Assembly: GCA_002171475.2 (NCBI GenBank)
Contig: NHEX02000014.1
Span: 4,131 to 36,779, forward strand
Length of the DNA: 32,649 nucleotides
Source of the DNA: Flavobacteriales bacterium TMED96
GTDB taxonomy: Bacteria; Bacteroidota; Bacteroidia; Flavobacteriales; Flavobacteriaceae
Direction: 5' to 3'
Shown here: in pieces, positions 9,987 to 31,926 of the stretch
Layout: each line of letters starts with the position of its first letter
How positions within the stretch are numbered: position 1 is the first letter of the stretch
The notes under the pieces: model-generated
Seen by the model: only the letters and a program-made list of their open reading frames with translations
Told to the model about the DNA's origin: nothing
The model's database searches: none
Position numbers and translations under genes: made by a program

Positions 9987-12079
9987 TGAAAAAGCTCATA
10001 CAGCATATTAATGATGGTAAAATTGAACTAGTAGACTGTCCTAAACCTTCAATTGGAAAACAAGAAATTCTTTGCGAAACAAAATGTAGTTTAATTTCTT
10101 CTGGAACGGAAAGAATGTTGCTTGACTTTGGTAAGTCTAATTTTTTACAAAAAGCTCTAAAACAAAAAGATAGAGTCAAAGATGTTTTCAATAAAATTAA
10201 TACTGATGGACTAATTCCTACAATAGAAGCTGTAAATCACAAATTAAATACTCCAATACCTTTAGGATATTCAAATGTAGGAAGGGTTATTTCCATTGGT
10301 TCAGAAGTTAAAAATTATCAAATAGGTGATAGAATTGTTTCTAATGCCTGTCATGCAGAAATTGTTACAACACAGAAACATCTCAGTGCAGTAATTCCGG
10401 ACAATGTTTCAGATGAAACAGCATCTTTTACAGTAATTGCTAGCATTGCTATGCATGGAGTAAGATTAGCAAATGTTACACTAGGAGAAACTGTGGCTGT
10501 TGTAGGATCTGGCCTTATAGGTTTATTAACAATACAGATATTAAAAGCAAATGGATGTAATGTTATAGCGTATGATTTTGACAAGAAAAAGTTAATGCTA
10601 GCAGAAAAATTTGGTGCACAAAGTTTTTTACTTGATAATGAAGGGTCGGGAAAGAATTTTGCTTTAAATCATACGAATGATATAGGAGTTGATAAAACCA
10701 TTATCACAGCTTCCACTAAAACTAGCGAACCAATTAAATTAGCTTCCAAAATTACAAGGAAGAGGGGAAAAATAATTCTTGTTGGTGTAGTAGATATACA
10801 TTTTGATAGATCAGATTTGTATGAAAAAGAAATTAGCTTTCAAGTATCGTGCTCGTATGGTCCGGGAAGATATGATAATAACTATGAAAATCAAGGAATA
10901 GACTATCCTATTGGATATGTCAGATGGACTGAACAGCGTAATTTTGATGCTGTCTTAAGATTAATGAGTGAAGGAAAAATTGTCACAAATGATTTATTAA
11001 CTGAAAAGTATAAGTTTAATGATGTTAACAAGGCTTATGACTCCCTATTAACTTCCAAAAATATTATTAGTATACTTTTAGAGTATTCCTCAAATAGTGA
11101 AAAGAAAATTGATGATATTGTCCAGATAGAAGAAAAATCATTTATCAAAACAGACCCTATAATATCTGTTGTTGGTTGCGGTAATTATACGCAAAGAAAT
11201 ATTTTACCTTTATTGAAAAAAATGAATTTAAACCTTGATACGGTAATATCTAAGGAAGGATTAAGTGGTACTATTAATGGTAAAAAGTTTGGATTTTCTA
11301 ATTCCTCTACAAATCTTGAGAAAACTTTAAATAAATCTTTATCAAATACTTTTTTTATTACCACAAGACATAACTTACACTCTGAAATTGCTAATGAATG
11401 TCTTAAAAAAGAGAAACATATTTTTTGTGAAAAGCCATTAGCACTTTCAATGGAAGAATTAAATGAAATTAAAGAAAACTACAAAAAATCTAATAGTAAA
11501 ATAATGGTTGGTTTCAATAGAAGATTTTCTACTTTGACAACTAAAGCAAAACAATTATTAAAAAATTGTCATTCTCCTAAAAGCTTTATATTTACGTTCA
11601 ATAGCGGATTTATACCTGCAGATCATTGGGTGCATGATAAAAAAATTGGAGGCGGAAGAATAATAGGAGAGGCTTGTCATCATATTGATTTAATGAGATT
11701 TCTTTGTGGAGAAAAAATTATAGAAATAGATACATCTTTCCTTAAGAATGGTCAATTGGATACGGCTATAATAACTTTGAAATTTGAAGATGGTTCTATA
11801 GGCTGTATTAATTATTTTTCTAATGGAAATAAATCTCATGCTAAAGAAGATATCAAGATTTTTTGTGAAGAAAAAATATTGCATTTAGATAACTTTAAGG
11901 CTTTATACGGTTATGGCTGGAATAATTTTAAAAAACTAAAATTATTTTCTCAAGATAAAGGTCAAGAACAATGTTTAATCGAATTTATTGATTCTATTAA
12001 AAATGGCTCTCCATCACCAATACCTTTTGATGAAATTTATGAGGTAAGCAAATATTCCATTAATGCTGCGAAAAATTAA
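9986..12079 (+). CDS. Two-domain oxidoreductase: medium-chain dehydrogenase fused to Gfo/Idh/MocA domain
   Basis: The 697-residue protein is a fusion. Residues 1 to about 365 are a medium-chain dehydrogenase/reductase: CSLISSGTE at 34-42, LGYSNVGRVISIGSEV at 93-108 and the NAD(P)-binding GSGLIG at 174-179. The catalytic-zinc GHE motif reads GYS, so the zinc site looks lost. Residues about 392-697 are a Gfo/Idh/MocA domain with VVGCGNY (395-401), CEKPLAL (481-487) carrying the conserved lysine, and GGGRIIGEACHHIDLMRFL. This architecture is known in exopolysaccharide clusters, often beside a heparinase-like gene as here, but its substrate is unknown to me. It may oxidise, reduce or epimerise a sugar or sugar nucleotide (inference). 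The 3' end overlaps the next gene by 17 bases. Confidence 0.9.
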   Translation: MKKLIQHINDGKIELVDCPKPSIGKQEILCETKCSLISSGTERMLLDFGKSNFLQKALKQKDRVKDVFNKINTDGLIPTIEAVNHKLNTPIPLGYSNVGRVISIGSEVKNYQIGDRIVSNACHAEIVTTQKHLSAVIPDNVSDETASFTVIASIAMHGVRLANVTLGETVAVVGSGLIGLLTIQILKANGCNVIAYDFDKKKLMLAEKFGAQSFLLDNEGSGKNFALNHTNDIGVDKTIITASTKTSEPIKLASKITRKRGKIILVGVVDIHFDRSDLYEKEISFQVSCSYGPGRYDNNYENQGIDYPIGYVRWTEQRNFDAVLRLMSEGKIVTNDLLTEKYKFNDVNKAYDSLLTSKNIISILLEYSSNSEKKIDDIVQIEEKSFIKTDPIISVVGCGNYTQRNILPLLKKMNLNLDTVISKEGLSGTINGKKFGFSNSSTNLEKTLNKSLSNTFFITTRHNLHSEIANECLKKEKHIFCEKPLALSMEELNEIKENYKKSNSKIMVGFNRRFSTLTTKAKQLLKNCHSPKSFIFTFNSGFIPADHWVHDKKIGGGRIIGEACHHIDLMRFLCGEKIIEIDTSFLKNGQLDTAIITLKFEDGSIGCINYFSNGNKSHAKEDIKIFCEEKILHLDNFKALYGYGWNNFKKLKLFSQDKGQEQCLIEFIDSIKNGSPSPIPFDEIYEVSKYSINAAKN

Positions 12080-19275: not shown

Positions 19276-19614
19276 TTACTTGCTCATATTTTTCCTAATC
19301 TCTGTAGCAGATATTTTTCCAATATCGCTCGGAGGAACATGCTCTATAATGTCATACCCTCCTCCCCTGCCATAATTAACAGACTCTAGGTCAGGTATGG
19401 TAATAACTTTAACTCTTTTACTCTCAACTAAATCAAAAAGTTCTTTTTCAATATTATTCTTTACTTCTTCAGGAGTAAAGGGGTTTGAATTGTCTTGAGC
19501 TGTTTCTCTGATTGCAATACATACGTTAAATCCAGAATTTAGTCTTTGATCAATTAACCATCTATGTCCCTTATGCCAGGGTTGCCATCTTCCTATAAAC
19601 AGTGAGTATTTCAT
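19276..19614 (-). CDS. Small HxGH-motif nucleotidyltransferase (NadM/cytidylyltransferase-like fold)
   Basis: The 112-residue protein opens MKYSLFIGRWQPWHKGH, where GRWQPWHKGH (8-17) is the nucleotide-binding HxGH block of the nucleotidyltransferase alpha/beta phosphodiesterase superfamily. It ends with ISATEIRKNM (101-110), the second signature (ISxTxIR). It is shorter than NadM or CoaD (about 160-180 residues). It should transfer AMP or CMP from a nucleotide triphosphate to a phosphorylated acceptor; the acceptor is unknown. The HxGH block at residue 14 fixes the start, so the 44-base overlap with the upstream kinase gene is real. Together with that kinase it forms a phosphorylate-then-activate pair (inference). 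It is not the RfaE C-terminal heptose enzyme, whose motif differs. Confidence 0.8.
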   Translation of the reverse strand: MKYSLFIGRWQPWHKGHRWLIDQRLNSGFNVCIAIRETAQDNSNPFTPEEVKNNIEKELFDLVESKRVKVITIPDLESVNYGRGGGYDIIEHVPPSDIGKISATEIRKNMSK

Positions 19615-20047
19615 CTACGCTCTCCTTAACTGTTAAATTTCCAGTATCTATCGTTAATGAACTTGGATCAACTGGTGGTTCATAATCTTTAGCAAAATAT
19701 TCTTCTCTTCCTCTTATTTCAGAGGTATGCAAATAAACTTCTAAAAATAGAAAATCCTCTTTTAATTCATCTCTCAAAAATCTATAAGGAGCAACAATTG
19801 AAAGAATACATGAATAATTTTTATTTGCTAAAAATCTAGCAATAGAAATAGCTGATGATATATTCCTAATTCTTCCCTCTTTGGAATAGTCTTTATTTTT
19901 ATTAATGAATCTTAAATCATCTCCGTCAATATTAATAATCTTTATTGATGAATCATTTTGGGGGTTCATTCCTTTAATCAGTTCTTTGGCTAAGGTAGTT
20001 TTGCCGCTACCTGGTTGACCTGTAAGCCATATTATAATATTTTTCAT
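19571..20047 (-). CDS. Adenylylsulfate kinase (CysC)-like P-loop kinase
   Basis: The 158-residue protein has the Walker A GQPGSGKTT (10-18), IDGDDLR (40-46), VAPYRFLRDEL (85-95, the SPYRADRD counterpart of CysC) and YEPPVDPSSLTIDTG (122-136, the YExPxxPxLxLDT counterpart). It is shorter than CysC (about 195 residues) with a reduced lid region. CysC phosphorylates the 3'-OH of APS, but relatives in capsule loci phosphorylate other substrates, so the substrate here is open. I chose ATG at 20047 (MKNIIIWLTG); a longer open frame to 20137 would run inside the upstream dehydrogenase gene. One base separates it from that gene's stop. No CysD/CysN or PAPS pathway gene is present. Confidence 0.82.
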   Translation of the reverse strand: MKNIIIWLTGQPGSGKTTLAKELIKGMNPQNDSSIKIINIDGDDLRFINKNKDYSKEGRIRNISSAISIARFLANKNYSCILSIVAPYRFLRDELKEDFLFLEVYLHTSEIRGREEYFAKDYEPPVDPSSLTIDTGNLTVKESVDEILTVYRKMATLA

Positions 20048-20048
20048 T

Positions 20049-20912
20049 TTAGTCAACAGAATCCTCCGAAACTGCTCGACCTTTAAGATTTTCCCAATCC
20101 TTTTCAGGACGAACTTGAAGATTAGTTTTCCAGGCACCTTCTAAAACATTCATATCTATATCCAAGTCTTTGGCGAAATTAATCATTGCCTGTATATCTT
20201 TTGGAAAACAACTACCACCAAACCCTCTCTTACCATCATGTCCAGGCACCTTTACATGTGAGTGACCTATTCTTCCATCTAAAATAAAACCCTCTACGGC
20301 CATCTCCCAATCTGCATCTACCTTTTCAGCAACTAAAAGCATTTCATTTAAAAAAGATACTTTAGTTGCAAAGAATAGGTTATTCATATACTTAATAAGC
20401 TCTGCTGTTTCATATGTAGTTTGAATAACCGGTAAATATGCTCCAAATCTATGTTTATACAATTTTGCTACTTTTTCTGTATGATTTGAATCACCGCCTA
20501 AAATAACTCTAGCTTGATTTATAAAATCAAAATGTGCAGATCTTTCAGTTAAAAATTCTGGATTAAAAACAATATTCAATTTTGGGTACAATTTCTGGAG
20601 CTTTAAAGACGTACCTGGCACTATTGTTGATCTAATCAAAATAATATTATCATCTCTTTCTATGACAGATGAAATATCTTTCAATACAGCATGAATTATA
20701 GACAAATCAATAGCTCCATCTTTTGATGCTGGAGTTGGTACGGATACAAAAATAACTTCTGACTCATTTACAGTTTCATGCAAAGAATGAGTACTTTTTG
20801 CTGGGTCAACATCATATATCCTAACTTTAGCATCATATCCAGTATGAGGAGAAAATCCTGCTGCTACCGCTGTTCCAACAAATCCTTTGCCAATAATCCC
20901 AATATTATTCAT
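20049..20912 (-). CDS. Short UDP-glucose/GDP-mannose dehydrogenase-family protein lacking the C-terminal domain
   Basis: The 287-residue protein has the NAD-binding GKGFVGTA (8-15), VSVPTPAS (57-63), RSTIVPGTS (94-102), NPEFLTE (117-123), AELIKYMNN (170-178) with the catalytic-type lysine K174, and KRGFGGSCFPKDI (228-240) with nucleophile C235. The residues for two-step oxidation of a sugar nucleotide to a uronate are therefore present. Normal family members have about 400-450 residues; the UDP-binding C-terminal domain is missing, and the protein ends cleanly at TAA. The start is supported by a strong AAGGAG seven bases upstream (20920-20925). It is the first gene of the minus cassette and is nearly fused to the kinase gene. 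The substrate may not be a UDP-sugar given the lost domain (inference). Confidence 0.85.
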   Translation of the reverse strand: MNNIGIIGKGFVGTAVAAGFSPHTGYDAKVRIYDVDPAKSTHSLHETVNESEVIFVSVPTPASKDGAIDLSIIHAVLKDISSVIERDDNIILIRSTIVPGTSLKLQKLYPKLNIVFNPEFLTERSAHFDFINQARVILGGDSNHTEKVAKLYKHRFGAYLPVIQTTYETAELIKYMNNLFFATKVSFLNEMLLVAEKVDADWEMAVEGFILDGRIGHSHVKVPGHDGKRGFGGSCFPKDIQAMINFAKDLDIDMNVLEGAWKTNLQVRPEKDWENLKGRAVSEDSVD

Positions 20913-21022: not shown

Positions 21023-21096
21023 GGGCCCATAGCTCAATTGGTTAGAGCAACGGACTCATAATCCGCAGGTTCGGGGTTCAAGTCCCTGTGGGCCCA
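21023..21096 (+). tRNA. tRNA with CAT anticodon (elongator Met or Ile2)
   Basis: The cloverleaf can be drawn by eye. The acceptor is GGGCCCA/TGGGCCC (7 pairs); the D stem is GCTC/GAGC with an AATTGGTTA loop. The anticodon loop is CTCATAA with CAT at 21057-21059 on a four-pair CGGA/TCCG stem. The T stem is CGGGG/CCCTG around TTCAAGT, and the discriminator is A at 21096. The closing 27-43 pair of the anticodon stem is an A-C mismatch. No CCA is encoded. A CAT anticodon may be elongator Met or the lysidine-modified Ile tRNA; I cannot separate these here. Confidence 0.93.
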
Positions 21097-21099
21097 CAA

Positions 21100-22011
21100 A
21101 TGAGTAGTCATTCTTATATACATAACTCAAAAAACGAAAACATTTATATTAATATTAATGGTGAATTGTTTTCCAGAGATAATGCAAAAATATCTGTATT
21201 TGATAGTGGATTTTTGTTAGGAGATGGAGTTTGGGAAGGTATTAGACTTCACAAGTCTAAACTTGTTTTTATTTCTGAACATCTTGATAGACTTTTCAAT
21301 AGTGCTCGTGGAATTTCTCTAAATATTCCCTTATCAAAAGATGAGATTATTTTTGAAATTGAAAAGGTATTATCGAAGAATGAAATGACAGATGATGTAC
21401 ATATTCGCTTAATTGTATCTAGAGGTGACAAAATTACTCCATATCAAAATCCGAACGCAAATGTAGGACCAATAAATTTTGTCATTATACCTGAATATAA
21501 AAAAACCGACCCGGAAATTTATAAAAATGGAATAATAATTGGAAGAGTCTCTACAATTAGACCTACTGAAAATATTTTAAGTACACATTATAACACCTTG
21601 AGTAAACTAAATTGCATCTTGGCCAGCATCGAAGCCAATAAACTTAAATATGATGAAGGTATTATGAATGATCCTTACGGTAACATAAGCACTTGCAATT
21701 CCACCAATCTTTTTTTTATTAAAAAAGGTCAAGTTTGGACCTCAACTGGAAAATTTTGTCTCAATGGAATAACTAGGAGTAAAGCAATTCATATATGTCA
21801 TATAAATGAAATTCCATGCATTGAAACGAACTTTACTTTTGAGGACATTGAAGATTGTGAAGAGGCTTTTGTTACAGGCACATTTGCAGGAATTATTCCC
21901 GTAACCAAAATCGAAAAGTATAAATTAAGTTCAACAAACTCTAGCTCTTTAGTCAATAAAATAAGAGCCTCATATAATCAATATATAAATCAATACATAT
22001 CTTCTCAATGA
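21100..22011 (+). CDS. Class IV (IlvE/D-amino-acid transaminase fold) PLP-dependent aminotransferase-like protein
   Basis: The 303-residue protein has the fold-type IV blocks IYINING (15-21), AKISVFDSGFLLGDGVWEGIR (29-49), a Schiff-base lysine K169 in LSKLNCILASIEANK, STNLFFIKKG (201-210), CLNGITRSKA (220-229) and VTGTFAGIIPV near the end. The glutamate that normally contacts the PLP pyridine nitrogen (SE or TE before the small-residue loop) reads ISTC, so it is Thr198 here. Substrate is therefore uncertain. The ATG at 21100 is 3 bases after the tRNA; a GTG at 21088 lies inside the tRNA and is rejected. There is no room for a Shine-Dalgarno. The 3' end overlaps the sulfotransferase-like gene by 4 bases (ATGA). 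Confidence 0.87.
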   Translation: MSSHSYIHNSKNENIYININGELFSRDNAKISVFDSGFLLGDGVWEGIRLHKSKLVFISEHLDRLFNSARGISLNIPLSKDEIIFEIEKVLSKNEMTDDVHIRLIVSRGDKITPYQNPNANVGPINFVIIPEYKKTDPEIYKNGIIIGRVSTIRPTENILSTHYNTLSKLNCILASIEANKLKYDEGIMNDPYGNISTCNSTNLFFIKKGQVWTSTGKFCLNGITRSKAIHICHINEIPCIETNFTFEDIEDCEEAFVTGTFAGIIPVTKIEKYKLSSTNSSSLVNKIRASYNQYINQYISSQ

Positions 22012-22721
22012 TAGTTGCTTGTTGGTCAGGTCCAAGAAATATTTCAACAGCACTAATGAGATCATGGTCTTCAAGAAAAGATACATTTGTAACAGATGAA
22101 CCTTTTTATGCATATTATTTAAAACAAACTAAGTTAAAACATCCTCAATATGAGGAAATCATAAATCATTACCCTTCAAATTATGATGAGGTTGTTAATT
22201 ACCTTATTAATAAAATTCCCAAAGATAAAAAAATTTGGTATCAGAAACATATGGCTCACCATATGCTCGATTTAAATAATATTAATTGGGTGAATAATTG
22301 TGAAAATTGCATTTTACTAAGACATCCAAAAGAAGTAATTAGTTCTTATTCCAAAAAAAATAAATTGAACTCAGTTGAAGAATTAGGATACCCACAGCAA
22401 TATGAAATTATAAAATACCTTAAAAAAATAAATAGATCATATATCATTATTAATTCAAGTGACCTAATAAAACATCCTGAAAAGGTATTATCAGATTGGT
22501 GTATGAAAATTAATATTAAATTTGACAAGTCTATGTTGGAATGGAAGACAGGTAATCATGAAAATGATGGTATTTGGTGGAAAAGCTGGTATGACAACGT
22601 AATAAAAACTTCTGGATTTCAAAAATATGAAAAAAAAGATATTAACATTGAGAATAAATATGATTCTATTTATAATGAATCAATGAAGTATTATAGTTTT
22701 TTAAAAGAGGATAAAGGATGA
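22008..22721 (+). CDS. Sulfotransferase-like P-loop protein
   Basis: The 237-residue protein starts CWSGPRNISTALMRSW (5-20), a 5'-phosphosulfate-binding-like loop, followed by DEPFYAYYL (30-38). It also has LLRHPKEVISSYS (103-115), the R-x(n)-S motif that binds the 3'-phosphate of PAPS in sulfotransferases. It therefore has the elements of a PAPS-dependent sulfotransferase, but the subgroup is poorly characterised and the acceptor is unknown. ATGA overlap with the aminotransferase-like gene and another ATGA overlap with the next small gene show one tightly coupled unit. A joint role with the aminotransferase is inferred from this coupling. Confidence 0.78.
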   Translation: MIVACWSGPRNISTALMRSWSSRKDTFVTDEPFYAYYLKQTKLKHPQYEEIINHYPSNYDEVVNYLINKIPKDKKIWYQKHMAHHMLDLNNINWVNNCENCILLRHPKEVISSYSKKNKLNSVEELGYPQQYEIIKYLKKINRSYIIINSSDLIKHPEKVLSDWCMKINIKFDKSMLEWKTGNHENDGIWWKSWYDNVIKTSGFQKYEKKDINIENKYDSIYNESMKYYSFLKEDKG

Positions 22722-22918
22722 ATTCTTTACTAAAATTGTGGTCACAACCAAAATGGATTAAATGGCTTATTTATTTAGCTATTGTATACATTTTATTTCT
22801 AATTAAAGAAGCATTTGCAATTGTCTTATGGTTCCTTTTTTGTATTATTTTATACTATATCATTTTTGCTAATAATGTATTTAAAACAAGGACCTACTAT
22901 GAAAAAAATAATTTTTAG
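22718..22918 (+). CDS. Small two-helix membrane protein of unknown function
   Basis: The 66-residue protein has two hydrophobic segments (about 14-31 and 35-51) joined by a short turn with KEAF, a Trp-rich basic N-terminus (LWSQPKWIKW) and a polar C-terminal tail. I do not recognise a family. It is likely real: AGAGGATAAAGG lies just before the ATG, it overlaps the sulfotransferase-like stop by 4 bases, and its end overlaps the peptidase start by 20 bases. Its membrane location suggests it could tether or assist a neighbouring product, but this is a guess. Confidence 0.65.
   Translation: MNSLLKLWSQPKWIKWLIYLAIVYILFLIKEAFAIVLWFLFCIILYYIIFANNVFKTRTYYEKNNF
22888..22892 (+). promoter_or_regulatory. 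Shine-Dalgarno that sets the M1 peptidase start
   Basis: AAGGA six bases before the ATG at 22899. It selects the lipoprotein signal-peptide start and excludes the longer open frame beginning at 22815. Confidence 0.6.
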
Positions 22919-24551
22919 TTTAGTCTTATTAACATTATTGTCTTGTCAGGAAAGCAGACCTCACGGAAACCAATATGAGTTACCAGAATTAACGCCTAAT
23001 AATTATTTAATAGGGAATTTAAATGACAATCGTTCATCATATAGAGTTTCATTTTATGACATAAATATTGATTTTGATATTGAAAAAAAATCAATAGATG
23101 GATATGTCACAATAAAGGCTGAAACTTTGAGAGATTTAAATTCATTGCAGGTTGATTTAGCAGAAAATTTAAATATTAAAAAAGTAACCCATGAAGGAAA
23201 TGAATTATCTTTTTCAAGAGAATATGATGCAGTTTTAGTTGATTTTATTTCAACTATAAAAAAAGATAGTATTTTTGAGTTTACAGTTTTTTATCAAGGA
23301 ATTCCACAGAGCGCAGATAATCCACCATGGGCAGGAGGGTTTACATGGTCAAAAGATAAAGATGGAAGAGACTGGATTGCCGTTTCATGCGAGGGTGAGG
23401 GTGCAAGAATCTGGTGGCCAAATAAAGATCATATCACAGCAGAAGGTGATAGTGTTCGAATGGCTTATACGGTTCCATCAAATATGGTAGCTGTGGGTAA
23501 TGGTAAATTAAAGAGTGTCGTTAATAATGGCGATAAATCCACTTATGAATGGTTTGTTAGCAACCCAATAAATAATTATAATATTTCAGTACAAATTGGA
23601 AATTATGTAGCAGTCCAAGATACTTTAATTAAAGGTGATAAAATTCATGATATGAACCACTATGTTCTGGATTATAATAAAGAACTTGCATCAAATTATT
23701 TTACTCAATCAAAAGAAGTTATACGATTTTATGAAAAATATTTTGGGGATTATCAATGGTATGAAGATGGCTATAAACTAATTGAAGTACCATATTTAGG
23801 AATGGAACATCAGTCTGCGGTCACGTATGGTAATGGATTCAGTATTTATAATGGAGTGCGAAGTAAAAGTTGGCCAATGTATGGAGTTATGGACCCTCTT
23901 ATTATCCATGAAACAGGTCATGAATGGTTTGGTAATAGCGTTACTGCATCGGATCCAACACATATTTGGATTCATGAAGGTTTGCAAGTTTATTCAGAAG
24001 CGATATATTTTGAAGATAAGTTTAAGAGTTACGAAGTTGGAGTTCATTACTTAAATACACTTAAAAATAGAATTGTTAACGAAATACCAATTGTTGGAAG
24101 AGAAAATGAAAATCATTGGGCTCTTCACGGTGATACTTATATGAAAGGTGCATGGGTAATGCATACTTTAAGAAGTGCAATAAATAATGATGAGGTTTGG
24201 TTTCAGATTTTAAAAGAATTTATGACTGAAAATGCTAAAGGCTTTGCTAATACAAGAGATTTCTTTACAAAAGTTTCTGAAAAAACCAATGAGGATTATT
24301 GGTATTTTGCTGAGCAGTATTTTTATACACCAAATCAACCTAAGTTAGAATACTATCAAACTGATGATAATTTTTATTATAGATGGAATGATGTAAATGA
24401 TAATTTTATAATGCCAATAGATTTACTTGTTAATGGAAAAGAAATTAGAGTAAATCCGACAAAAAGTTATCAATCTTTTACAATCAAAAGACATTCACAA
24501 ATTGAAGTAATGGACTGGAAGTTTTACGTCAAGCCAGTTTTAAATCAATAA
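22899..24551 (+). CDS. M1-family zinc metallopeptidase, lipoprotein
   Basis: The 550-residue protein starts with a lipoprotein signal MKKIIFSLVLLTLLSC with the lipobox cysteine at 16, so it is probably anchored to a membrane outside the cytoplasm. The beta-rich N-terminal domain begins with YRVSFYDINIDFDI. The substrate-binding GAMEN loop reads GMEHQ (301-305). The zinc site is HETGH (337-341) with the third ligand E360, the exact HExxH-x18-E spacing of gluzincins, and KGAWVMHTLR follows. The protein should be an active aminopeptidase trimming peptides. The usual C-terminal helical domain is short. It sits between a small membrane protein and a Wzi-like barrel; the link to glycan synthesis is not evident. 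Confidence 0.93.
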   Translation: MKKIIFSLVLLTLLSCQESRPHGNQYELPELTPNNYLIGNLNDNRSSYRVSFYDINIDFDIEKKSIDGYVTIKAETLRDLNSLQVDLAENLNIKKVTHEGNELSFSREYDAVLVDFISTIKKDSIFEFTVFYQGIPQSADNPPWAGGFTWSKDKDGRDWIAVSCEGEGARIWWPNKDHITAEGDSVRMAYTVPSNMVAVGNGKLKSVVNNGDKSTYEWFVSNPINNYNISVQIGNYVAVQDTLIKGDKIHDMNHYVLDYNKELASNYFTQSKEVIRFYEKYFGDYQWYEDGYKLIEVPYLGMEHQSAVTYGNGFSIYNGVRSKSWPMYGVMDPLIIHETGHEWFGNSVTASDPTHIWIHEGLQVYSEAIYFEDKFKSYEVGVHYLNTLKNRIVNEIPIVGRENENHWALHGDTYMKGAWVMHTLRSAINNDEVWFQILKEFMTENAKGFANTRDFFTKVSEKTNEDYWYFAEQYFYTPNQPKLEYYQTDDNFYYRWNDVNDNFIMPIDLLVNGKEIRVNPTKSYQSFTIKRHSQIEVMDWKFYVKPVLNQ

Positions 24552-24558
24552 GTTTTAA

Positions 24559-25788
24559 ATGAGTAAAAAGTATATCTTTTTTATCTTTTTATTTCAAATC
24601 ATATATTCACAAAATATAATTCAAGAAATAAGTTTTTATAAAAATCCATCTGAAAATAGTTACTATTGGATTGAAAATAATAATTATGGTCTGGGTTCAA
24701 GTTTGTATGACTTGGAAATTAAAAAAAGATTTTTATCGGAAGATTTTGAGATATTTTCATCAATCATTTTTTCTTATTCAGATGATAGCAAATTAAGATT
24801 TAAGGAAGTTTTTTTAAAAAAAAGGGTTTCAAATAATACCTATTTAAAAATCGGAAAATATTACAGAGACTTTAGTGTTTATTTGGATGATGAATTAAGT
24901 TCTGGATCATTATTAATTAGCACAAATGCCGAAGCATTACCAAAAATTGGTTTACTTTCAAAAATTGAAATTAATGATAAGTATAATATGCGTTTAGGTA
25001 TTTCTCATGCTAAACTAGCAAAAAGTAAAGTTTACAACGAAGAACCAAAAATACATGAGAAATTTATTTACCTAGATATTCTAATGAATGAAAAAGAAAA
25101 ATTTAGTATTGGCCTTGTCCATGAGGCTATATGGGGCGGTTCATCATATAGGCTTGGAAAACAACCAGATTCATTTAGAGATTTTTTAAAAATACTAATA
25201 TCTGCTGACAAAGGAAAAACTGAAGGTGAACCTCATACCAATGCCCTTGGAAATCATCTTGGTATTTGGGATTTTGTTTATGAAAAAAAGATTAATTCAA
25301 AAAAACTATCTTTTTACTATCAACATCTTTTTGAAGATACAAGTGGTTTAAGATTTGCAAATAAAACAGATGGTTTGTGGGGTCTACGTTTAAACAACTA
25401 TATAAATAATTTAGATATTCTTATTGAGTATTTTACAACGAAAAATCAAAGCATTGATCCGCCTTATGTAGATGAATTTTACTACAATCATGGTGTATAT
25501 GATGAAGGATGGTCTTACAAAGGGAAAACCCTTGGTAGTCCATTTATAAGCTCTACCGATTCTTCAATAAAAAAAGAATTTGAAATCATTTACATTGGAT
25601 TGAATTACAAATTTTCTTCAAAAAATTCACTTAAATTTATTTGTTCAAAACCATTTGGATCTACAGAATCTGCACAGTTTAAAGTTGTTTCTGAAAGAAA
25701 ATATAAAAATAAATCATTCGATTTTTATGCACTTAATAATTTAAATAATACGATTGGATTGGGAATTAACTTAAGATTATCGTTCTAA
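24559..25788 (+). CDS. Wzi-like capsule assembly outer-membrane beta-barrel protein
   Basis: The 409-residue protein starts with a signal peptide (KYIFFIFLFQIIYSQ) and consists of alternating polar and aromatic beta-strands ending in RLSF, as barrel proteins do. It has the blocks EAIWGGSS, GNHLGIWDF, YYQHLFEDTSGLRF, DGLWGL and FYYNHGVYDEGWSYKGKTLG, which resemble the Wzi family of Bacteroidota-type capsule assembly proteins. Wzi is an outer-membrane lectin that holds exported capsule on the cell surface, and this fits the Wza, Wzx, Wzy and Wzz genes in the window. It follows the M1 gene after 7 bases and overlaps the convergent GmhA gene by 12 bases. Confidence 0.8.
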   Translation: MSKKYIFFIFLFQIIYSQNIIQEISFYKNPSENSYYWIENNNYGLGSSLYDLEIKKRFLSEDFEIFSSIIFSYSDDSKLRFKEVFLKKRVSNNTYLKIGKYYRDFSVYLDDELSSGSLLISTNAEALPKIGLLSKIEINDKYNMRLGISHAKLAKSKVYNEEPKIHEKFIYLDILMNEKEKFSIGLVHEAIWGGSSYRLGKQPDSFRDFLKILISADKGKTEGEPHTNALGNHLGIWDFVYEKKINSKKLSFYYQHLFEDTSGLRFANKTDGLWGLRLNNYINNLDILIEYFTTKNQSIDPPYVDEFYYNHGVYDEGWSYKGKTLGSPFISSTDSSIKKEFEIIYIGLNYKFSSKNSLKFICSKPFGSTESAQFKVVSERKYKNKSFDFYALNNLNNTIGLGINLRLSF

Positions 25789-26350
25789 AGAATTTTCTAC
25801 TAAATCACAAATTAGATGGCCTGCTAAAATATGAAATTCTTGAATTCTAGCTGTGATTTTGCTTTCAACGTTAAAGTTATTGTCAGATAAGGTTTTAATA
25901 ATTCCTCCGTCATTTCCAGTCATGGAAATAACGTTCATAGAATTAGCTTTCGCACACTTAATTGCATTAATAATATTTTTTGAATTCCCACTAGTAGATA
26001 ATACAATTAGAGTATCTCCAATTTTACCATGAGCTTGAACTTGTCTTGAAAATATATTGTCAAAACTTTCGTCATTGCTCCATGCTGTTATAAATGAAAG
26101 GTCAGTATTTAAACAAATAGAATTGAATGGTTTTTTTTTTATTTTTATACATACCTCCTGTTAATTCAGCGGATAGATGATTTGCTTGAGAAGCACTCCC
26201 TCCATTTCCACACCAAAAAATACATCCATTGTTTTTTAAGGAATCGATAATTTTGTTAGCTATATTTTCTATTGCTAAAAAGTCTTTTGAATCAAAGTTG
26301 CTAAGTATTGCTTTATGATCATTAATTGCTTCAGTAATTTTTTCTTTCAT
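25777..26350 (-). pseudogene. gmhA: GmhA-like sedoheptulose-7-phosphate isomerase (SIS domain), frame broken at an A10/T10 tract
   Basis: From ATG at 26350 the frame encodes WCGNGGSASQANHLSAELTGG, a perfect GmhA substrate-binding block, then runs into TGA at 26102. In the next frame the rest of the protein is intact from about 26130 to the TAA at 25777-25779: ICLNTDLSFITAWSND, VLSTSGNSKNIINAIK, TGNDGG and ARIQEFHILAGHLICDLVE, all typical of GmhA. One base fewer in the ten-base run at 26131-26140 joins the halves into about 190 residues, the normal length. GmhA makes D-glycero-D-manno-heptose 7-phosphate. The gene may be decayed, phase-variable, rescued by slippage, or affected by a sequencing error. 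It overlaps the upstream epimerase by one base (TAATG). Confidence 0.88.
26131..26140. repeat. T10 homopolymer at the gmhA frame break
   Basis: Ten T on the plus strand (ten A in the gmhA sense, part of a KNKKK-coding stretch). Nine would keep gmhA in frame. Confidence 0.92.
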
Positions 26351-27261
26351 TAATCTAATCCAATTTCTTTCTTATACTTTTTAACCCAATCTTCGATTTT
26401 TTGTGTTGGCTCCCAATTTAATAATTTTTTTGCTAAAGAATTATCAGCAAGTGTTTCATTTGGTTCAAGGATGGGATCAAGATTTATCTTTGGTCCACCA
26501 ATCATTTCAGCTATTTGATTTACTGATCTGTTATCTCCATTTCCAATATTGATTACTTCCCCATTACCAACATTTTCAGAACTTGATGCAAGAATATTTG
26601 CACTTACAACATCTCCAACATAAGTAAAATCACGTCTTTGTTCACCATCTCCATTTATTGTCATTGGTTGATTGTTTAGTCTTTGATATATAAATATTCC
26701 CATTACTAATGCATATGCCCCATCAATATTTTGCCTTTCACCATAAACATTAAAATATCTTAAAGAAACTGTTTGAATTTGATAAACTTTTGCAAAAACT
26801 TTACACATTACTTCTCCATAAAATTTTTGTGCACCGTAAGGTGACATTGGATTCGCATCAAAATTTTCTTTTAACGGTAACTTTTTAGAATCTCCATATG
26901 CAGATGATGATGCACTATAAACAAATCTTCTAACCTTTGCATCGCTTGCACATTTTAAAATATTAAGCGTACCTATGGTATTGTTAATTTCATATTCTAG
27001 TGGATTTTCAATCGATGGCTGAACTCTCGCTTTAGCTGCTAACATGAAAACAGTATCTGCTCCCCTCATAGAATGTACAATTTTATCATAATTTGAAATA
27101 TTGCTCACATCAAGCTCTAAAACAGATGCTTTAGGGTTCAAATTTGATTTTTTCCCTGTAGTAAAATTGTCTATTATTGTTACTTCGTTTTTATTCTCAA
27201 TTAGTTTATCAACAAGATTACTACCAATGAAACCTGCTCCTCCAACTACAACATACTTCAT
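26350..27261 (-). CDS. NAD-dependent UDP-sugar 4-epimerase-like extended SDR
   Basis: The 303-residue protein has GGAGFIG (7-13), LAAKARVQPSIENPLEYEIN (74-93), SASSSAYG (116-123) and the catalytic Y142-GAQ-K146, followed by RYFNVYG and NGDGEQRRDFTYVGDVV. The set resembles UDP-GlcNAc/UDP-Glc 4-epimerases (WbpP/GalE) rather than HldD, which lacks the RVQPSIENP block. It would provide a galacto-configured sugar nucleotide for the glycan. It is set between the heptose kinase (ATGA overlap, GGAGAG ribosome-binding site) and gmhA (TAATG overlap), so it is translationally coupled to heptose genes although its own reaction probably is not part of that pathway. Confidence 0.87.
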   Translation of the reverse strand: MKYVVVGGAGFIGSNLVDKLIENKNEVTIIDNFTTGKKSNLNPKASVLELDVSNISNYDKIVHSMRGADTVFMLAAKARVQPSIENPLEYEINNTIGTLNILKCASDAKVRRFVYSASSSAYGDSKKLPLKENFDANPMSPYGAQKFYGEVMCKVFAKVYQIQTVSLRYFNVYGERQNIDGAYALVMGIFIYQRLNNQPMTINGDGEQRRDFTYVGDVVSANILASSSENVGNGEVINIGNGDNRSVNQIAEMIGGPKINLDPILEPNETLADNSLAKKLLNWEPTQKIEDWVKKYKKEIGLD

Positions 27262-28184
27262 TCTATTTTCTCTCCCTTCAATAAATTATTTATATCTTCT
27301 AGCGTTGCAAAAGATGTACCTTTTTTACCAACAACTACTGCAGCTGCAGCATTAGCAATTAAGGCTGATTTTTCAATATTCTTTGTTTTGAAATATGCTA
27401 AGGAAAGTGCTGCAATAACGGTATCCCCAGCTCCGGTCACATCAGGATTATTAACTTGATGAGCATCAATATGACTTATAAATCCATTCTTGCCAACAAC
27501 AGTCATTCCATTTTCTCCTTTTTTAGCAACAATATATTCTAAGTTGGTTTTTTTAATGATTGATTGACAAACCTCAACCAAAGTATCATTGTTATCTATT
27601 ATTAATTTTGATGCTTTTTTTAATTCGTCAAGATTAGGTGTAATAATTTTTGCATTTGAATAGAATGAAAAATCATCTTTTTTAGGGTCCACAAAAATAT
27701 TTTCATTTTTAATATCTGAGAACCATGTATTATTTAGTACTCCCTTATTGTAGTCCGAAAGAATAACTACATCATAGTCATCGAATTTGATATTAGAAAT
27801 ATCTGGACACCAGTCTTCTAAGACTTTTTCATAATCTACCCTTACAACTTGCTTATCATTATTATAATATCTTCTTTTCATTGTAGTTAAATCACTAATT
27901 TGACTGAGGTGTTCTGTATTAATTTTCTGATTATTTAATATTTTTTTAAGCTCGCTTCCATGACAATCTGAACCAATATAACCGAGGCATGATACGCTTG
28001 CCCCTAGCTTGCTCATATTTAATGCAACATTTCCTGCACCGCCTGGCACTATCAATTCATCTTTAGGCTCCAAAACAGGAACTGGTGCTTCTGGTGACAT
28101 TCTTACAGATGAACAAAAAATGTATTGATCAACCATGAAATCCCCAATTAATAATACTTTTATATCTTGAAAATGTTGATTCAC
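27258..28184 (-). CDS. hldA: D-glycero-beta-D-manno-heptose-7-phosphate kinase (HldA / HldE N-domain type)
   Basis: The 308-residue PfkB-family protein carries RfaE-specific blocks: VLLIGDFMVDQYIF (10-23), VRMSPEAPVPVLE (27-39), VPGGAGNVALN (46-56), KQVVRVDYE (111-119), DVVILSDYNKGVL (138-150) and PDVTGAGDTVIA (247-258) with catalytic D254. It phosphorylates D-glycero-D-manno-heptose 7-phosphate at C1. The second, nucleotidyltransferase domain of bifunctional HldE is absent, so another gene must do that step. The start is GTG, overlapping the TGA of the upstream mutase (GTGA). With gmhA downstream it forms a partial heptose pathway. Confidence 0.9.
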   Translation of the reverse strand: MNQHFQDIKVLLIGDFMVDQYIFCSSVRMSPEAPVPVLEPKDELIVPGGAGNVALNMSKLGASVSCLGYIGSDCHGSELKKILNNQKINTEHLSQISDLTTMKRRYYNNDKQVVRVDYEKVLEDWCPDISNIKFDDYDVVILSDYNKGVLNNTWFSDIKNENIFVDPKKDDFSFYSNAKIITPNLDELKKASKLIIDNNDTLVEVCQSIIKKTNLEYIVAKKGENGMTVVGKNGFISHIDAHQVNNPDVTGAGDTVIAALSLAYFKTKNIEKSALIANAAAAVVVGKKGTSFATLEDINNLLKGEKIE

Positions 28185-28924
28185 TTTGCTTTACCTTGCT
28201 TAATAACTAAATCTTGTTTTCGCTGAAGTTCATCATTATCAATCAAATATTGTTTTTTTAGCACATTATTATTTTTATCAAATTCATACACAAGAGGTAT
28301 ACCTGTTGGAATGTTAACAGTCATTATTTCATCATTTGATAATTTATCCAATATTTTTACGATTGCTCTTAAAGAATTACTATGAGCAACAATTAAATGA
28401 GATTTTTTTTTGGCAGTTAAAAAATTAAAATATTCTTCCCAAAAAGGAATTAACCTAGAAATAACCATTTTTAAACTTTCTCCTGATGGTAAAGAATCTT
28501 TATCAATAAAACTAAATTTTTTAATAAACCTTGGATGTCTTTTATCATTATAATCTAAAAATGGCGGTGGAGTATCAAAGCTTCTACGCCAAATTTTTAC
28601 TTGATCTTCTCCATACTTTGATGCTGTTTCTGATTTATTAAGTCCTTGAAGAGCACCATAGTGTCTCTCATTTAATCTCCAATCATATTTAATTTCATTC
28701 TTATCAAATTTTAATATATCAGCAACAATATTTGCTGTATGGTTCGCACGAGTTAAAATTGAAGTATAAATTGAATAAACTTCAATATTCGATTTTAGCA
28801 ATTGATTAGCAGCAAAATTTGCTTCATCAATTCCATTATTTGTGAGATCCACATCTGTCCAGCCCGTGAAACGATTTTCAAGATTCCATTGGCTTTCACC
28901 GTGGCGCAGAAGTACAAGCTTCAT
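28181..28924 (-). CDS. gpmA: 2,3-bisphosphoglycerate-dependent phosphoglycerate mutase
   Basis: The 247-residue protein is a textbook dPGM: LRHGESQWNLENRFTGWTDV (6-25) with the phospho-histidine H8, TRANHTA with R59, the NERHYGALQG block with E86, WRRSFDTPPP (112-121) and VAHSNSLRA with H181. It interconverts 3- and 2-phosphoglycerate in glycolysis and gluconeogenesis. It is placed inside a polysaccharide unit, overlapping the Wza-like gene by one base (TAATG) and the heptose kinase by four (GTGA). The motifs are too typical to suggest a change of substrate. A 9-T tract at 28413-28421 is in frame. Confidence 0.95.
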   Translation of the reverse strand: MKLVLLRHGESQWNLENRFTGWTDVDLTNNGIDEANFAANQLLKSNIEVYSIYTSILTRANHTANIVADILKFDKNEIKYDWRLNERHYGALQGLNKSETASKYGEDQVKIWRRSFDTPPPFLDYNDKRHPRFIKKFSFIDKDSLPSGESLKMVISRLIPFWEEYFNFLTAKKKSHLIVAHSNSLRAIVKILDKLSNDEIMTVNIPTGIPLVYEFDKNNNVLKKQYLIDNDELQRKQDLVIKQGKAK

Positions 28925-30861
28925 TAATTGTTACTATCAACTATGACTAAAATAGCAGCAATATTAGCTAGAGTTGATGATAAATCAGCAATAAAACTAG
29001 TTACATCAAATTCATCTGGGTTAGGATTCTCTGGTACGAAAATAGAATCACCTGGGAATACTCTTTTTGTTTTGCCGCGAAAAATATTAACCGGATCAAT
29101 TTCTCCATTAGCCCTAACAACATACGCCCTTTTTTTAAGACTGTAAGGCTTATAACCTCCAGCTAATTCGATAGCTTCTGACAATGTCATACCATTCCCT
29201 GATTGATGAGCGATGAACCCGGGGTTATATACATTGCCATCAACTCTTATTACATTTGTCTTCGGTAGAATTGTAATAATATTTTGATCTGCTATTTGAA
29301 AGTTAAGATCAATATTCGATACAAGTTCAACTTTATTGAATTCATTGCCCTCACTATCAATACTAAGTAAGTTTTTGGTAACTGATACACTATTTATTGA
29401 ACCCATTTCAGTTATACCACCAGCTAATTTTATTGCTTGTGCCAAACTTAATCCTTCTTTAAGAGGATAAGTCCCCGGTGAATTAACTTCACCTTTAATT
29501 GTATATGTATAACTATTCTTATATTTAGTCGATTCATAGACAAAAATTTTGTCATTCACTTCAAGTTTAAAACTATTTGCATCTGAATAATCTACTCTCA
29601 ACTCTTTTCCGTAGAATTGATTTTCATCCAATCTTGATATTACAATCTCATTGTTAATTGTTTTTCTAAAAATAGGATCTTCAAATCCTCCAGCAACATC
29701 TAAAACTTCTTTTAAAGTAATTCCACTTTCTTCATTTTGATATCTTAATAGATCAATTGGATATTTCCCAGGTCTTGTAACTCTTCCAAAGACGGAAACA
29801 GAAGTATCATTTTTCGCAATTGGTATAAGCTCAACAACAGATCCGTTTTGTATTTTTATTTTAGCATTTTGGGATAAATGTATTAATCTACCAGACCTTG
29901 CAATATCATCAGAATCACGTATATCTATTGGTATTATATCATTTATTACTGCTTTATCACTAGCCATTGAGGAAAGACCCCCAGCATAACTGATAAGATT
30001 GGACAATGAGTCTGAATCTAGTAATTCATAAAGTCCAGGATTAATTATTTCACCTTTAATTTCTGCTCTATTTACGGCTACTGGAACGTGAATTACATCT
30101 CCATCTAAAATTCTTATATTTGAAAAGGAATTCATGCCATTTAAAAAGAAAGAATAAAAATCAACTACTGCAATTATTTCAGAATTTCTGATAATTTGAA
30201 CTTTTCTTAATGAACCGTTATCCTTAATACCTCCAGCTTGAACTAATGCAGAAAAAATATCTGAAAAAGGATGGATGAGATTTATTCCAGGGCTGGTTAC
30301 TTGTCCAGAAAAATATACGTTAACAGATTTAATTTTCCCCAACTCTAACATTAACTGAGTTGAATTATTACTACTGTTTAAAGTTGAATAAATTCGTGAA
30401 AGCTCAGATGAAAGTAAGTTTTCAGCTTCATTAAGAGTTTTACCAGACAAGTTGACAAACCCGATATTTTGGTAATAAATCATGCCATCTTTATTTAAAA
30501 TAAATTTTTCCCTAGAATTTTTTTCGCCCCAAAGAGATAAAATTATTTCATCACCAGCACCTAATTTGAAGTCTACAGGAGTGGGAATATTGTCAAAAAA
30601 ATTAATTTGTTTATTAAAATAATCGTAGCCGAAAAATGATGAGAGATTTTCAGAATCTTTTTGTTCAATTTCAATTTCAATTGATTCTTGGTTGATAGAG
30701 TCTACACTTTCAAGTGCGCTATCCATAGAAGGATTTTGAATAGAAAGTTTTTCTCTTATTTCATCTAACTGAGAATTAGTAAGTTTATTTAAATCACTTA
30801 AGGGTGCTTGTGCGAATGAAAAGCTTTGAAGAAGAATAAATGCACTAATAATTATTTTCAT
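28924..30861 (-). CDS. Wza-like SLBB-domain polysaccharide export protein
   Basis: The 645-residue protein has a signal peptide (IIISAFILLQSFSFAQ), no lipobox cysteine, and a Poly_export domain around 95-160 (FKLGAGDEIILSLWG, then DGMIYYQNIGFVNLSG). Five SLBB repeats follow at about 183-225, 267-310, 355-400, 453-495 and 538-582, each with a GxVxxPGxY/F-like turn and an AGG-ending helix. A C-terminal hydrophobic helix spans about 621-641. E. coli Wza has two SLBB-type domains, so this is a long form with a tall periplasmic barrel. It should form the outer-membrane channel for the polysaccharide. No Wzc-type kinase is adjacent. A 39-base gap precedes it; I see no clear promoter there. Confidence 0.9.
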   Translation of the reverse strand: MKIIISAFILLQSFSFAQAPLSDLNKLTNSQLDEIREKLSIQNPSMDSALESVDSINQESIEIEIEQKDSENLSSFFGYDYFNKQINFFDNIPTPVDFKLGAGDEIILSLWGEKNSREKFILNKDGMIYYQNIGFVNLSGKTLNEAENLLSSELSRIYSTLNSSNNSTQLMLELGKIKSVNVYFSGQVTSPGINLIHPFSDIFSALVQAGGIKDNGSLRKVQIIRNSEIIAVVDFYSFFLNGMNSFSNIRILDGDVIHVPVAVNRAEIKGEIINPGLYELLDSDSLSNLISYAGGLSSMASDKAVINDIIPIDIRDSDDIARSGRLIHLSQNAKIKIQNGSVVELIPIAKNDTSVSVFGRVTRPGKYPIDLLRYQNEESGITLKEVLDVAGGFEDPIFRKTINNEIVISRLDENQFYGKELRVDYSDANSFKLEVNDKIFVYESTKYKNSYTYTIKGEVNSPGTYPLKEGLSLAQAIKLAGGITEMGSINSVSVTKNLLSIDSEGNEFNKVELVSNIDLNFQIADQNIITILPKTNVIRVDGNVYNPGFIAHQSGNGMTLSEAIELAGGYKPYSLKKRAYVVRANGEIDPVNIFRGKTKRVFPGDSIFVPENPNPDEFDVTSFIADLSSTLANIAAILVIVDSNN

Positions 30862-30900
30862 GTTTTCAATTTAGTTTTAAAATTATTCTTTACAAATAAA

Positions 30901-31926
30901 TTAAATGGACAACCATCTATCATTTTCAAGGGTCCATTTTATTGTTGATTCAAGTCTATCGTACGCAGACTTAGGTACCCACCCCATGTTCTTCATTTTT
31001 TCTCCGTCCAATGCATATCTTAAATCATGCCCAGGTCTTTGTGAGTGAAAATCAACCATTTCATATATTAATTCCTTCTTTTGTGTTTGGGCAATGAATT
31101 GAGCAAGTTGAAGATTATCAATTTCGTCTTTTCCTACGATATTGAATTTTTGACATTTAGCTCCCGTTGAATCTTGCCTTAAACTTTCAATATTATAATT
31201 AAATAAGAACATTAAAGCATCTGCAACATCTTCAGCATGTATATAATGTCTTGATCCTGCGACTGTCTTTTCTGAATTAGCATGAACAGTAACTTTTTCA
31301 CTGTCTCTTACTTTTTTTATTACCATAGGAATATATTTTTCAGGATTTTGTCTTTCTCCAAAAACATTCATTGTATGAGTTATTAATGATGGTAATCCAT
31401 AAGTATTTTCGAATGCAACAACTAATTCTTCGGCACCTGCTTTTGTTGCAGAGTATGGGTTAGTTGAATTATATCTGTCATTCTCTTTATAATTTATTCC
31501 TTTTGGTGCTGGACCAAAAACTTCATCTGTACTAAAATATGCAAATCTCTCAAGGTTCTCTAGCTTTCTGGCATAATCGAGTATATGTGCTGTACCAACA
31601 ACATTATCCATCACAAACTCTAATGGATAAGATATCGAACGATCTACATGTGAACCAGCAGCAAGGTGACTAATCAAATCGACAGTCCCTATCGAAGCAG
31701 CAATTTCAGGATTTATTTCAGCTTTTAAATCATGATGAATTACTCTAACTCTTTTTCGTTCAGATTCAGGGTATGACATAACAACTTCATTTAATCTATT
31801 TAAATTTCCACTAAAATCTAATCTATCTAGTGTAACGATATGCCAGTCTGTGGTTGATAAAATCTTATCAATAACATGATGAGCAATAAATCCTGCCCCT
31901 CCAGTAATTAAAATTCTTTTACTCAT
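30901..31926 (-). CDS. RmlB-like nucleotide-sugar 4,6-dehydratase (extended SDR)
   Basis: The 341-residue protein has ITGGAGFIAHH (7-17), HLAAGSHVDRSI (87-98), the dehydratase signature FSTDEVFG (131-138) with T133, D134, E135, and the catalytic Y158-SAT-K162. HTMNVFGERQNPEKYIP and GSRHYIHAEDVADA follow. This is the full active-site set of dTDP-glucose 4,6-dehydratases, which make 4-keto-6-deoxy sugars. The substrate could be another nucleotide sugar, because no RmlA, RmlC or RmlD is visible. The upstream DegT aminotransferase overlaps its start by 8 bases, a usual partner acting on the 4-keto product (inference). Confidence 0.9.
   Translation of the reverse strand: MSKRILITGGAGFIAHHVIDKILSTTDWHIVTLDRLDFSGNLNRLNEVVMSYPESERKRVRVIHHDLKAEINPEIAASIGTVDLISHLAAGSHVDRSISYPLEFVMDNVVGTAHILDYARKLENLERFAYFSTDEVFGPAPKGINYKENDRYNSTNPYSATKAGAEELVVAFENTYGLPSLITHTMNVFGERQNPEKYIPMVIKKVRDSEKVTVHANSEKTVAGSRHYIHAEDVADALMFLFNYNIESLRQDSTGAKCQKFNIVGKDEIDNLQLAQFIAQTQKKELIYEMVDFHSQRPGHDLRYALDGEKMKNMGWVPKSAYDRLESTIKWTLENDRWLSI

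Follow-up and report, generated by a model that had tools for sequence, protein, structure and literature searches.

A 112-residue nucleotidyltransferase and an APS-kinase-family partner probably form a compact sulfate-activating unit

The 32,649-nucleotide stretch analysed here (positions 4,131 to 36,779 of contig NHEX02000014.1, assembly GCA_002171475.2, Flavobacteriales bacterium TMED96; hereafter the window) carries a tight block of three minus-strand genes, each read from ATG to TAA. A short nucleotide-sugar-dehydrogenase-like enzyme of 287 residues without the C-terminal domain is encoded at 20049..20912, followed after a gap of 1 base by a kinase of the adenylyl sulfate (APS) kinase family at 19571..20047. 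This kinase has 158 residues counted from its ATG; read mechanically, its open reading frame (ORF) begins at GTG and has 188. The 3' end of the kinase gene overlaps by 44 bases (19571..19614) with the 5' end of the third gene (19276..19614), which codes for a tiny HxGH nucleotidyltransferase (NT). The pair of kinase and NT thus sits next to a short sugar dehydrogenase in a polysaccharide locus, and a sulfotransferase gene (22008..22721, plus strand; PF19798, 162 bits) lies about 1.1 kb beyond the dehydrogenase gene, divergent from the trio. A first-pass annotation, made from the DNA letters and their translations, had described the three genes with the same positions and spacing, an NT of 112 residues with an HxGH motif and a dehydrogenase devoid of the uridine diphosphate (UDP)-binding C-terminal domain, all of which was confirmed. 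We propose that the kinase and the NT probably act together in sulfate activation.

The window kinase is a member of the APS-kinase family, as judged by its sequence and its predicted fold. It matches APS_kinase (PF01583) with 64.4 bits against a cut-off of 21.1 (E 1.6e-17), and the P-loop GQPGSGKT (from residue 10), DGDDLR (41), DYSKEGR (53), APYR (86) and DYEPP (121) were located in it. The glycine-rich loop and the DGDxxR, DYSxxGR, PYR and DYEPP motifs align with those of canonical members. A search of the PDB sequences at E 0.01 returned 24 matches, all of them APS kinases or chains of ATP sulfurylase/3'-phosphoadenylyl sulfate (PAPS) synthase. The profile of the kinase family (A2) matched APS kinases in the PDB at 1.4e-28 and shikimate kinase at 8.3e-8, as well as adenylate kinase at 5.9e-15, around the P-loop only. 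The AlphaFold2 (AF2) model of the kinase has a predicted local distance difference test (pLDDT) score of 93.4, and every one of the 50 Foldseek matches listed for it is an APS kinase or includes an APS kinase domain, with TMq up to 0.84. Both the profile and the alignment used for the model contain canonical APS kinases (L090, L093 and L113), which biases them towards that family; the same assignment is obtained from the window kinase alone by Pfam and the PDB search. The known substrate of the family is an adenylyl product, adenylyl sulfate, and not a free small molecule. Therefore, the likely order is adenylylation by the NT followed by phosphorylation of the ribose 3'-position by the kinase, and the reverse order given in the first-pass annotation is probably wrong.

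The NT carries the motifs GRWQPWHKGH (from residue 8), NPFT (44), NYGRGGGY (80) and ISATEIR (101). It scores 19.2 against the Pfam family CTP_transf_like, slightly under the cut-off of 21, and its closest NCBI family is archaeal nicotinamide mononucleotide (NMN) adenylyltransferase, with scores far below both cut-offs (38.5 against 127 and 36 against 181.2). The AF2 model (mean pLDDT 89.4; 76 for residues 91-100 and near 61 for residues 101-112) shows an HxGH Rossmann core, best matched among the 50 matches listed by phosphopantetheine adenylyltransferases (PPAT) and NMN adenylyltransferases, with Z of 9.9-10.9 over 102-109 residues. The matches listed by Foldseek and VIA-align are mainly of these two kinds, and ATP sulfurylase is not among them. 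Alignment of 69 sequences, obtained from 134 NT loci at 90% identity, revealed the invariant residues G8, Q11, P12, H14, H17, L20, P74, G82, R83, G86, Y87, S102 and R107. In a wider count, restricted to the 273 NT ORFs (of 277) with GRxQPxHxxH, GR..GY is present in 194 of the 197 distinct NTs; two of the three exceptions are cut short and the third is from Microvirga. The segment from the third strand to the ISxT helix, which holds GR..GY, comprises about 25 residues and is shorter than in NMN adenylyltransferases. Since the acceptor segment is cut down around these invariant residues, we infer from sequence and model that the acceptor would be a small anion held by R83.

The likeness to NadM, the archaeal-type NMN adenylyltransferase, extends to GRxQPxHxGH and the S-x-T-x-x-R helix; it is the nearest in sequence to the NT and among the nearest in fold. 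However, the NT is about 50 residues shorter, a GRxxGY loop replaces the acceptor segment, and the enzyme is coupled to an APS-kinase-family kinase. It is very unlikely that the pair serves NAD salvage as a kinase with an NMN adenylyltransferase, as in NadR, to offset NAD depletion during phage infection. Besides the kinship with NMN adenylyltransferases, this explanation can call on Stenotrophomonas phage Bhz60, in which a NADAR-domain gene precedes and overlaps the fused kinase-NT gene (L003, 4148-5324). The NMN-binding segment appears deleted in the NT, however, and the NadR kinase belongs to the ribosylnicotinamide kinase family rather than to the APS-kinase family. In addition, the genomic context of the pair includes sulfotransferases, CysD/CysN and DUF2061, a small predicted membrane domain.

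Relatives of the NT were collected from IMG/VR, where the best 80 of 287 encoding stretches were used (near-duplicates among them), and from a scan of one genome per species, which gave 47 loci, mostly of Marinimicrobia, Pelagibacteraceae (SAR11) and SAR86. A gene is scored as absent from a locus when the fetched stretch lacks it, and many of these stretches end at a contig edge. The fetched stretch includes a window-like kinase as well as the NT at 78 of 80 viral loci and 45 of 47 genomic ones. The two genes usually adjoin, with one or more genes intervening in some loci, and in several loci they form a single protein. Their commonest overlaps are 8, 44, 26 and 1 bases, and 23 bases also occurs; the 44-base overlap of the window recurs in 16 of the 96 pairs with measurable spacing (6 of 43 non-redundant ones). 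These proteins are named in databases as kinase, cysC/adenylyl-sulfate kinase or hypothetical. The 230-position phage family phrog_10255 of PHROG covers both enzymes, its first part matching the window kinase and its last part the NT, although it is named just 'kinase', without a two-enzyme reading.

The conserved unit is the kinase with the NT, rather than the trio. None of the 80 viral stretches and 3 of the 47 genomic ones have a dehydrogenase near the NT: in L108 and L110 the two genes are adjacent, and in L109 about 5 kb separates them and the dehydrogenase is on the opposite strand. A further weak match of 24% occurs in L131; even when it is counted as found, the dehydrogenase was not found in 43 of 47 genomic stretches. 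The first-pass annotation had named rare co-occurrence of the three families beforehand as what would refute its idea that one sugar-like molecule is oxidised by the dehydrogenase, phosphorylated by the kinase and activated by the NT, and rare co-occurrence is what the neighbourhoods revealed. The trio is a tight block in the window, L108 and L110 and is consecutive in L090 and L093, which speaks for such a path; nevertheless, together with the adenylyl sulfate specificity of the kinase family, the counts make it highly improbable, and the trio as one pathway was rejected. What survives of the idea is the coupling of kinase and NT and a probable role in decorating a glycan or another acceptor, whereas the single linear path on a sugar or polyol does not.

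The dehydrogenase itself matches the UDPG/GDP-mannose NAD-binding and central domains of Pfam with 90 and 80.6 bits (cut-offs 27 and 25.4), retains the motifs GKGFVG and GFGGSCFPKD, and gives no Pfam match to the C-terminal UDP-binding domain. Of the 21 viral relatives, 17 stop no more than 5 residues from the aligned end and those of L100-L102 extend 17 residues past it, all of these being 284-309 residues long from stop to stop; that of L105 is a fragment. As its viral relatives are equally short, the window dehydrogenase does not look like a broken gene. The NT is present in just 4 of the 21 dehydrogenase-led viral loci, and the order dehydrogenase, NT and kinase is consecutive in L090 and L093. 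A frequent arrangement in viral loci is a sulfotransferase and an epimerase-like gene ahead of the dehydrogenase (L089, L090, L092 and L093), and in L096 it is preceded by a DUF2061-fused APS kinase together with a HAD gene and an epimerase. It thus occasionally accompanies the pair as well as sulfotransferase/epimerase cassettes. Rather than taking part in activation, it may furnish the glycan that is to be sulfated with an oxidised sugar.

A second NT branch of 56 viral loci has a canonical APS kinase, recognised by the lid motif FTG[IV], beside or fused to the NT in 42 loci, a non-canonical kinase in 8 and none found in 6. The two canonical NT-paired kinases tested, from L093 (165.4) and L291 (160.3), pass the cut-off of 138.7 of TIGR00455, the NCBI equivalog-domain family of adenylyl-sulfate kinase. 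On a gammaproteobacterial contig (L113) the NT is followed in one frame by a canonical APS kinase (136 bits) that is cut by the contig end, and in Natrinema (L291) the NT is fused to a canonical APS kinase (152 bits). A tblastn search with the L113 fusion found nine haloarchaeal plasmid genes, with two-piece matches over 84-93% of the query. Eight of the nine are annotated, all as cysC, and the ninth plasmid is without annotation. A sulfotransferase lies upstream of the fusion, directly or past one small ORF, in all eight annotated cases. A YqcI/YcgG-family gene is found just downstream of the fusion in seven of these eight; in the eighth it is close by on the opposite strand. In Natrinema the sulfotransferase, the APS kinase with CTP_transf_like and YqcI_YcgG (10872-11621) are all recognised by Pfam.

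Sulfotransferase genes were sought along whole viral contigs, 70 in number and including some close kin: 34 chosen from the first IMG/VR sets and 36 chosen from the 56 second-branch loci, the latter set omitting contigs that repeat L093 and L090; loci L211-L290 are outside this search, and PF00685 and PF03567 were applied to the first 34 contigs. A sulfotransferase over the cut-off is present in 25 of the 70, and in 17 of these 25 its distance to the NT is at most 5 kb, where random placement would give 4.0 (P 8e-10). With one contig per lineage, the representatives being picked after the sulfotransferase matches were known, the count is 6 of 14 against 2.5 expected (P 0.02). Matches under the cut-off (L068 near, L053 far, a second one in L160 and a second one in L040) are not separate positives, and genes of L037 and L051 that are sulfotransferase-like by eye, as well as a fragment in L091, gave no Pfam match. 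Among the genomic loci, the sulfotransferase is upstream on the strand of the kinase and NT in L107 and L109, and divergent in L110 as in the window. The association of sulfotransferase and NT is real, and far from universal. PAPS_reduct (PF01507, which also covers CysD) is over its cut-off in 0 of 36 viral contigs, with four sub-threshold matches. Reduction is therefore a poor alternative use of the pair there, and PAPS reduction was rejected as its general use.

Sulfotransferases require PAPS. We compared 19 genomes carrying the pair or the NT (18 chosen from the 47 NT loci and the window's own) with 14 control genomes, the assemblies being partly incomplete single-cell or metagenome ones, so that each absence is weakened while the pattern is not. 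Sulfotransfer_3 is over the cut-off in 12 of the 19 genomes and in 2 of the controls, with three matches in each of four SAR86 genomes. Yet ATP sulfurylase (PF01747) was found in 0 of the 19 (controls 5 of 14), CysD in 1 (controls 10 of 14) and AprA over the cut-off in 3, with weak matches below it in seven more genomes, which leaves a gap in the source of PAPS. AprBA occurs near the pair in SAR11 and was considered as a general source of APS; with AprA in just those three genomes, it was rejected. As regards ATP sulfurylase and CysD, the first-pass statement that the CysC-like kinase lacks any sulfate-activation partner stands: neither was found in the assembly of the window, where the contig may be misbinned. 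As a statement about any such partner it is probably a misreading, because the NT itself is probably the partner.

Taken together, the association of the two genes, their fusions, families and folds and the classical enzymes not found suggest that the kinase and the NT are probably a two-step sulfate-activating unit. The NT would act as a minimal sulfate adenylyltransferase that makes APS. The kinase would then phosphorylate the ribose 3'-OH of APS to give PAPS, drawing the unfavourable first step forward, and sulfotransferases would spend the PAPS on sulfating glycans or other acceptors. Adenylyl transfer to sulfate is energetically uphill, as established for ATP sulfurylase according to an excerpt of PMC3728988, so coupling to an APS kinase would be selected; the pull exerted by the kinase would explain the overlap, adjacency and fusion of the genes. 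An adenylyltransferase coupled to an APS kinase and linked to sulfotransferases is found among the relatives, while the sulfotransferase of the window is divergent. It also seems reasonably likely that this NMN-adenylyltransferase-like protein of 112 residues joins Sat and CysDN as another kind of sulfate adenylyltransferase, and that with the kinase it constitutes a portable PAPS cassette of less than 1 kb in many phages, SAR11, SAR86, Marinimicrobia and haloarchaeal plasmids, being the missing PAPS source of their sulfotransferases.

Such an arrangement resembles known systems of PAPS synthesis. As in PAPS synthase (Sat-CysC), an adenylyltransferase and an APS-kinase-family enzyme are adjacent or fused in either order and feed sulfotransferases. 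Sat also belongs to the HxGH superfamily and has about 390 residues. However, the NT has no detected similarity to PF01747 and possesses its own GRxxGY motif, and the lid of the window kinase is short. CysD/CysN (NodP/NodQ) with CysC would have the same role, namely providing APS for an APS kinase that serves sulfotransferases such as the Nod-factor enzyme, although they belong to other protein families (PP-loop and GTPase). This kind of system is thus known, and the mini-enzyme of NMN-adenylyltransferase type as its first step is apparently unnamed: no minimal sulfate adenylyltransferase of this kind was found among the titles and abstract beginnings of open PMC papers.

It is possible, although unlikely, that the pair makes the 3'-phospho-nucleotidyl donor of another small anion (e.g. 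phosphoramidate or phosphonate) for a sulfotransferase-like transferase, as in the O-methyl phosphoramidate pathway of Campylobacter. The partners of NT relatives include canonical APS kinases scoring over the NCBI cut-off, Pfam-recognised sulfotransferases adjoin NT relatives, and Cj1416 of the Campylobacter pathway has another nucleotidyltransferase fold, all of which speak against this reading. The kinases of the window type, on the other hand, are non-canonical with a short lid, and genes that by eye are HisH-like amidotransferases are located near the pair in L108 and L131. In both loci (L108, 11577-12984; L131, 14593-15216) these genes are downstream of the kinase and NT and accompanied by HisF/WbpG-like genes, also identified by eye, an arrangement that recalls N-acetamidino sugar clusters. 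In the portion of PMC11800397 consulted, Cj1415-Cj1418 jointly make cytidine diphosphate (CDP)-phosphoramidate 3'-phosphate, and Cj1415 is the kinase of the pathway according to a title cited there. There, too, a nucleotidyl anion would undergo 3'-phosphorylation before its use in the capsule. That system differs from the pair in comprising four genes and in its anion.

Several observations weigh against sulfate activation by the pair. The NT is nearest in sequence to NMN adenylyltransferases, and no similarity to ATP sulfurylase was detected, with no match to PF01747 and no Sat chain found in the PDB by the NT profile at E 0.01. The lid segment of the window kinase is shorter than in canonical APS kinases, and the kinase scores 69.5 against TIGR00455, well below the cut-off. 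No kinase was recognised near the NT in the genomic loci L111 and L119 and the viral loci L025 and L062, nor for 6 of 56 and 10 of 80 NTs in the later viral sets, some of these being at contig ends. A sulfotransferase over the cut-off was not found in 45 of the 70 viral contigs, and in eight of the 25 positive ones it is more than 5 kb from the NT. The incompleteness of the genomes mentioned above has to be added, as do the cultured Stenotrophomonas phages, in which the fused genes are surrounded by DNA-metabolism genes.

The last point, together with the neighbours of some loci, could also be read as nucleic-acid end repair, in which the kinase, a HAD 3'-phosphatase and the nucleotidyltransferase would act on RNA or DNA ends. 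HAD-like genes are located between or beside the kinase and NT in L026 (5663-6001), L037, L056, L014 and L129 (10342-10698), lying between the two in the first four, and the one beside the NT in L129 matches HAD_PNKP, the 3'-phosphatase domain of PNKP, over the cut-off (33.5 bits). We regard this explanation as very improbable, since the window kinase and the scanned group-1 kinases have APS_kinase as their best family match, the bacterial and archaeal context is one of glycans and sulfotransferases, and HxGH enzymes are not known to be ligases. A HAD 3'-phosphatase is equally compatible with recycling of 3'-phosphoadenosine 5'-phosphate (PAP), and the HAD-like genes near the pair are possible candidates for a PAP 3'-phosphatase. 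Under sulfate activation, HAD-fold or CysQ-like phosphatases may recycle PAP at some loci. A CysQ-like gene of the inositol-phosphatase family (4854-5645) is found directly upstream of the NT of L119, for which no kinase was recognised, in an alphaproteobacterium with AprA.

The plasmid of Microvirga lotononidis (L293) encodes, in this order, NodI, NodJ, a sulfotransferase, a kinase-NT fusion, CysD and a CysN fused to DUF2061 and without a kinase domain. The kinase half of the fusion retains its motifs. The NT half is decayed: it has HESH, it has GL where GR is otherwise invariant, and VSPTAVQNR replaces ISATxxR. It is the only uncut one without GR..GY among the 197 distinct NTs. The only NT copy found beside CysD/CysN is thus a decayed one, which fits the expectation if the NT and CysDN share one job. 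This remains a single case, and the score of the Microvirga kinase against TIGR00455 (48.9) is below the cut-off; both temper its value for sulfate activation.

If sulfate activation by the pair is true, a minimal sulfate adenylyltransferase would fill the PAPS gap and illustrate how compact sulfate-activating enzymes can become, and a function would be assigned to proteins now labelled kinase, cysC or hypothetical. Sulfated surface glycans would be predicted in plankton and their viruses, and a compact PAPS cassette would be useful for producing sulfated compounds. The function of phage sulfotransferases is called unclear in an excerpt of a marine phage paper (PMC10580990), and the enzyme sulfating the Halobacterium N-glycan was unidentified as of 2014 according to part of PMC4335974.

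Relatives of the kinase without the NT occur on other proteobacterial plasmids, with an annotated sulfotransferase near in three of the four examined: overlapping in Rhodoferax, at 1.5 kb in Rhizobium and at about 6 kb in Cupriavidus, with none in Methylosinus. On the Rhodoferax plasmid (L306, 4519-6582) a tail fibre assembly gene, the sulfotransferase and an annotated adenylyl-sulfate kinase are consecutive, and this kinase matches APS_kinase and KTI12 about equally (31 bits). The three genes are perhaps involved in phage tail-related sulfation. DUF2061 is fused to CysN in L293 (10172-11761) and to a canonical APS kinase in L096 (3993-4721), and it adjoins the NT in the viral locus L044 (6351-6572); it is probably a membrane part of sulfate activation.

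With regard to the origin of the contig, none of the assembly's 59 assigned relatives has the NT, and the sulfotransferase was found in 0 of 6 genomes of the same genus. Eight genes around the trio (window 21088-31926) are syntenic with the Marinimicrobia loci L107-L110 at 32-85% identity, reaching 73-78% for an aminotransferase, 71-82% for an M1 peptidase and 84-85% for an epimerase. By sequence the contig looks Marinimicrobia-like, through either misbinning (the contamination of the assembly is 6.5%) or transfer. In the same part of the window, an ORF of 82 residues at 26102-26350, possibly truncated, resembles by eye the start of a phosphoheptose isomerase and neighbours a heptose-kinase-like gene at 27258-28184.

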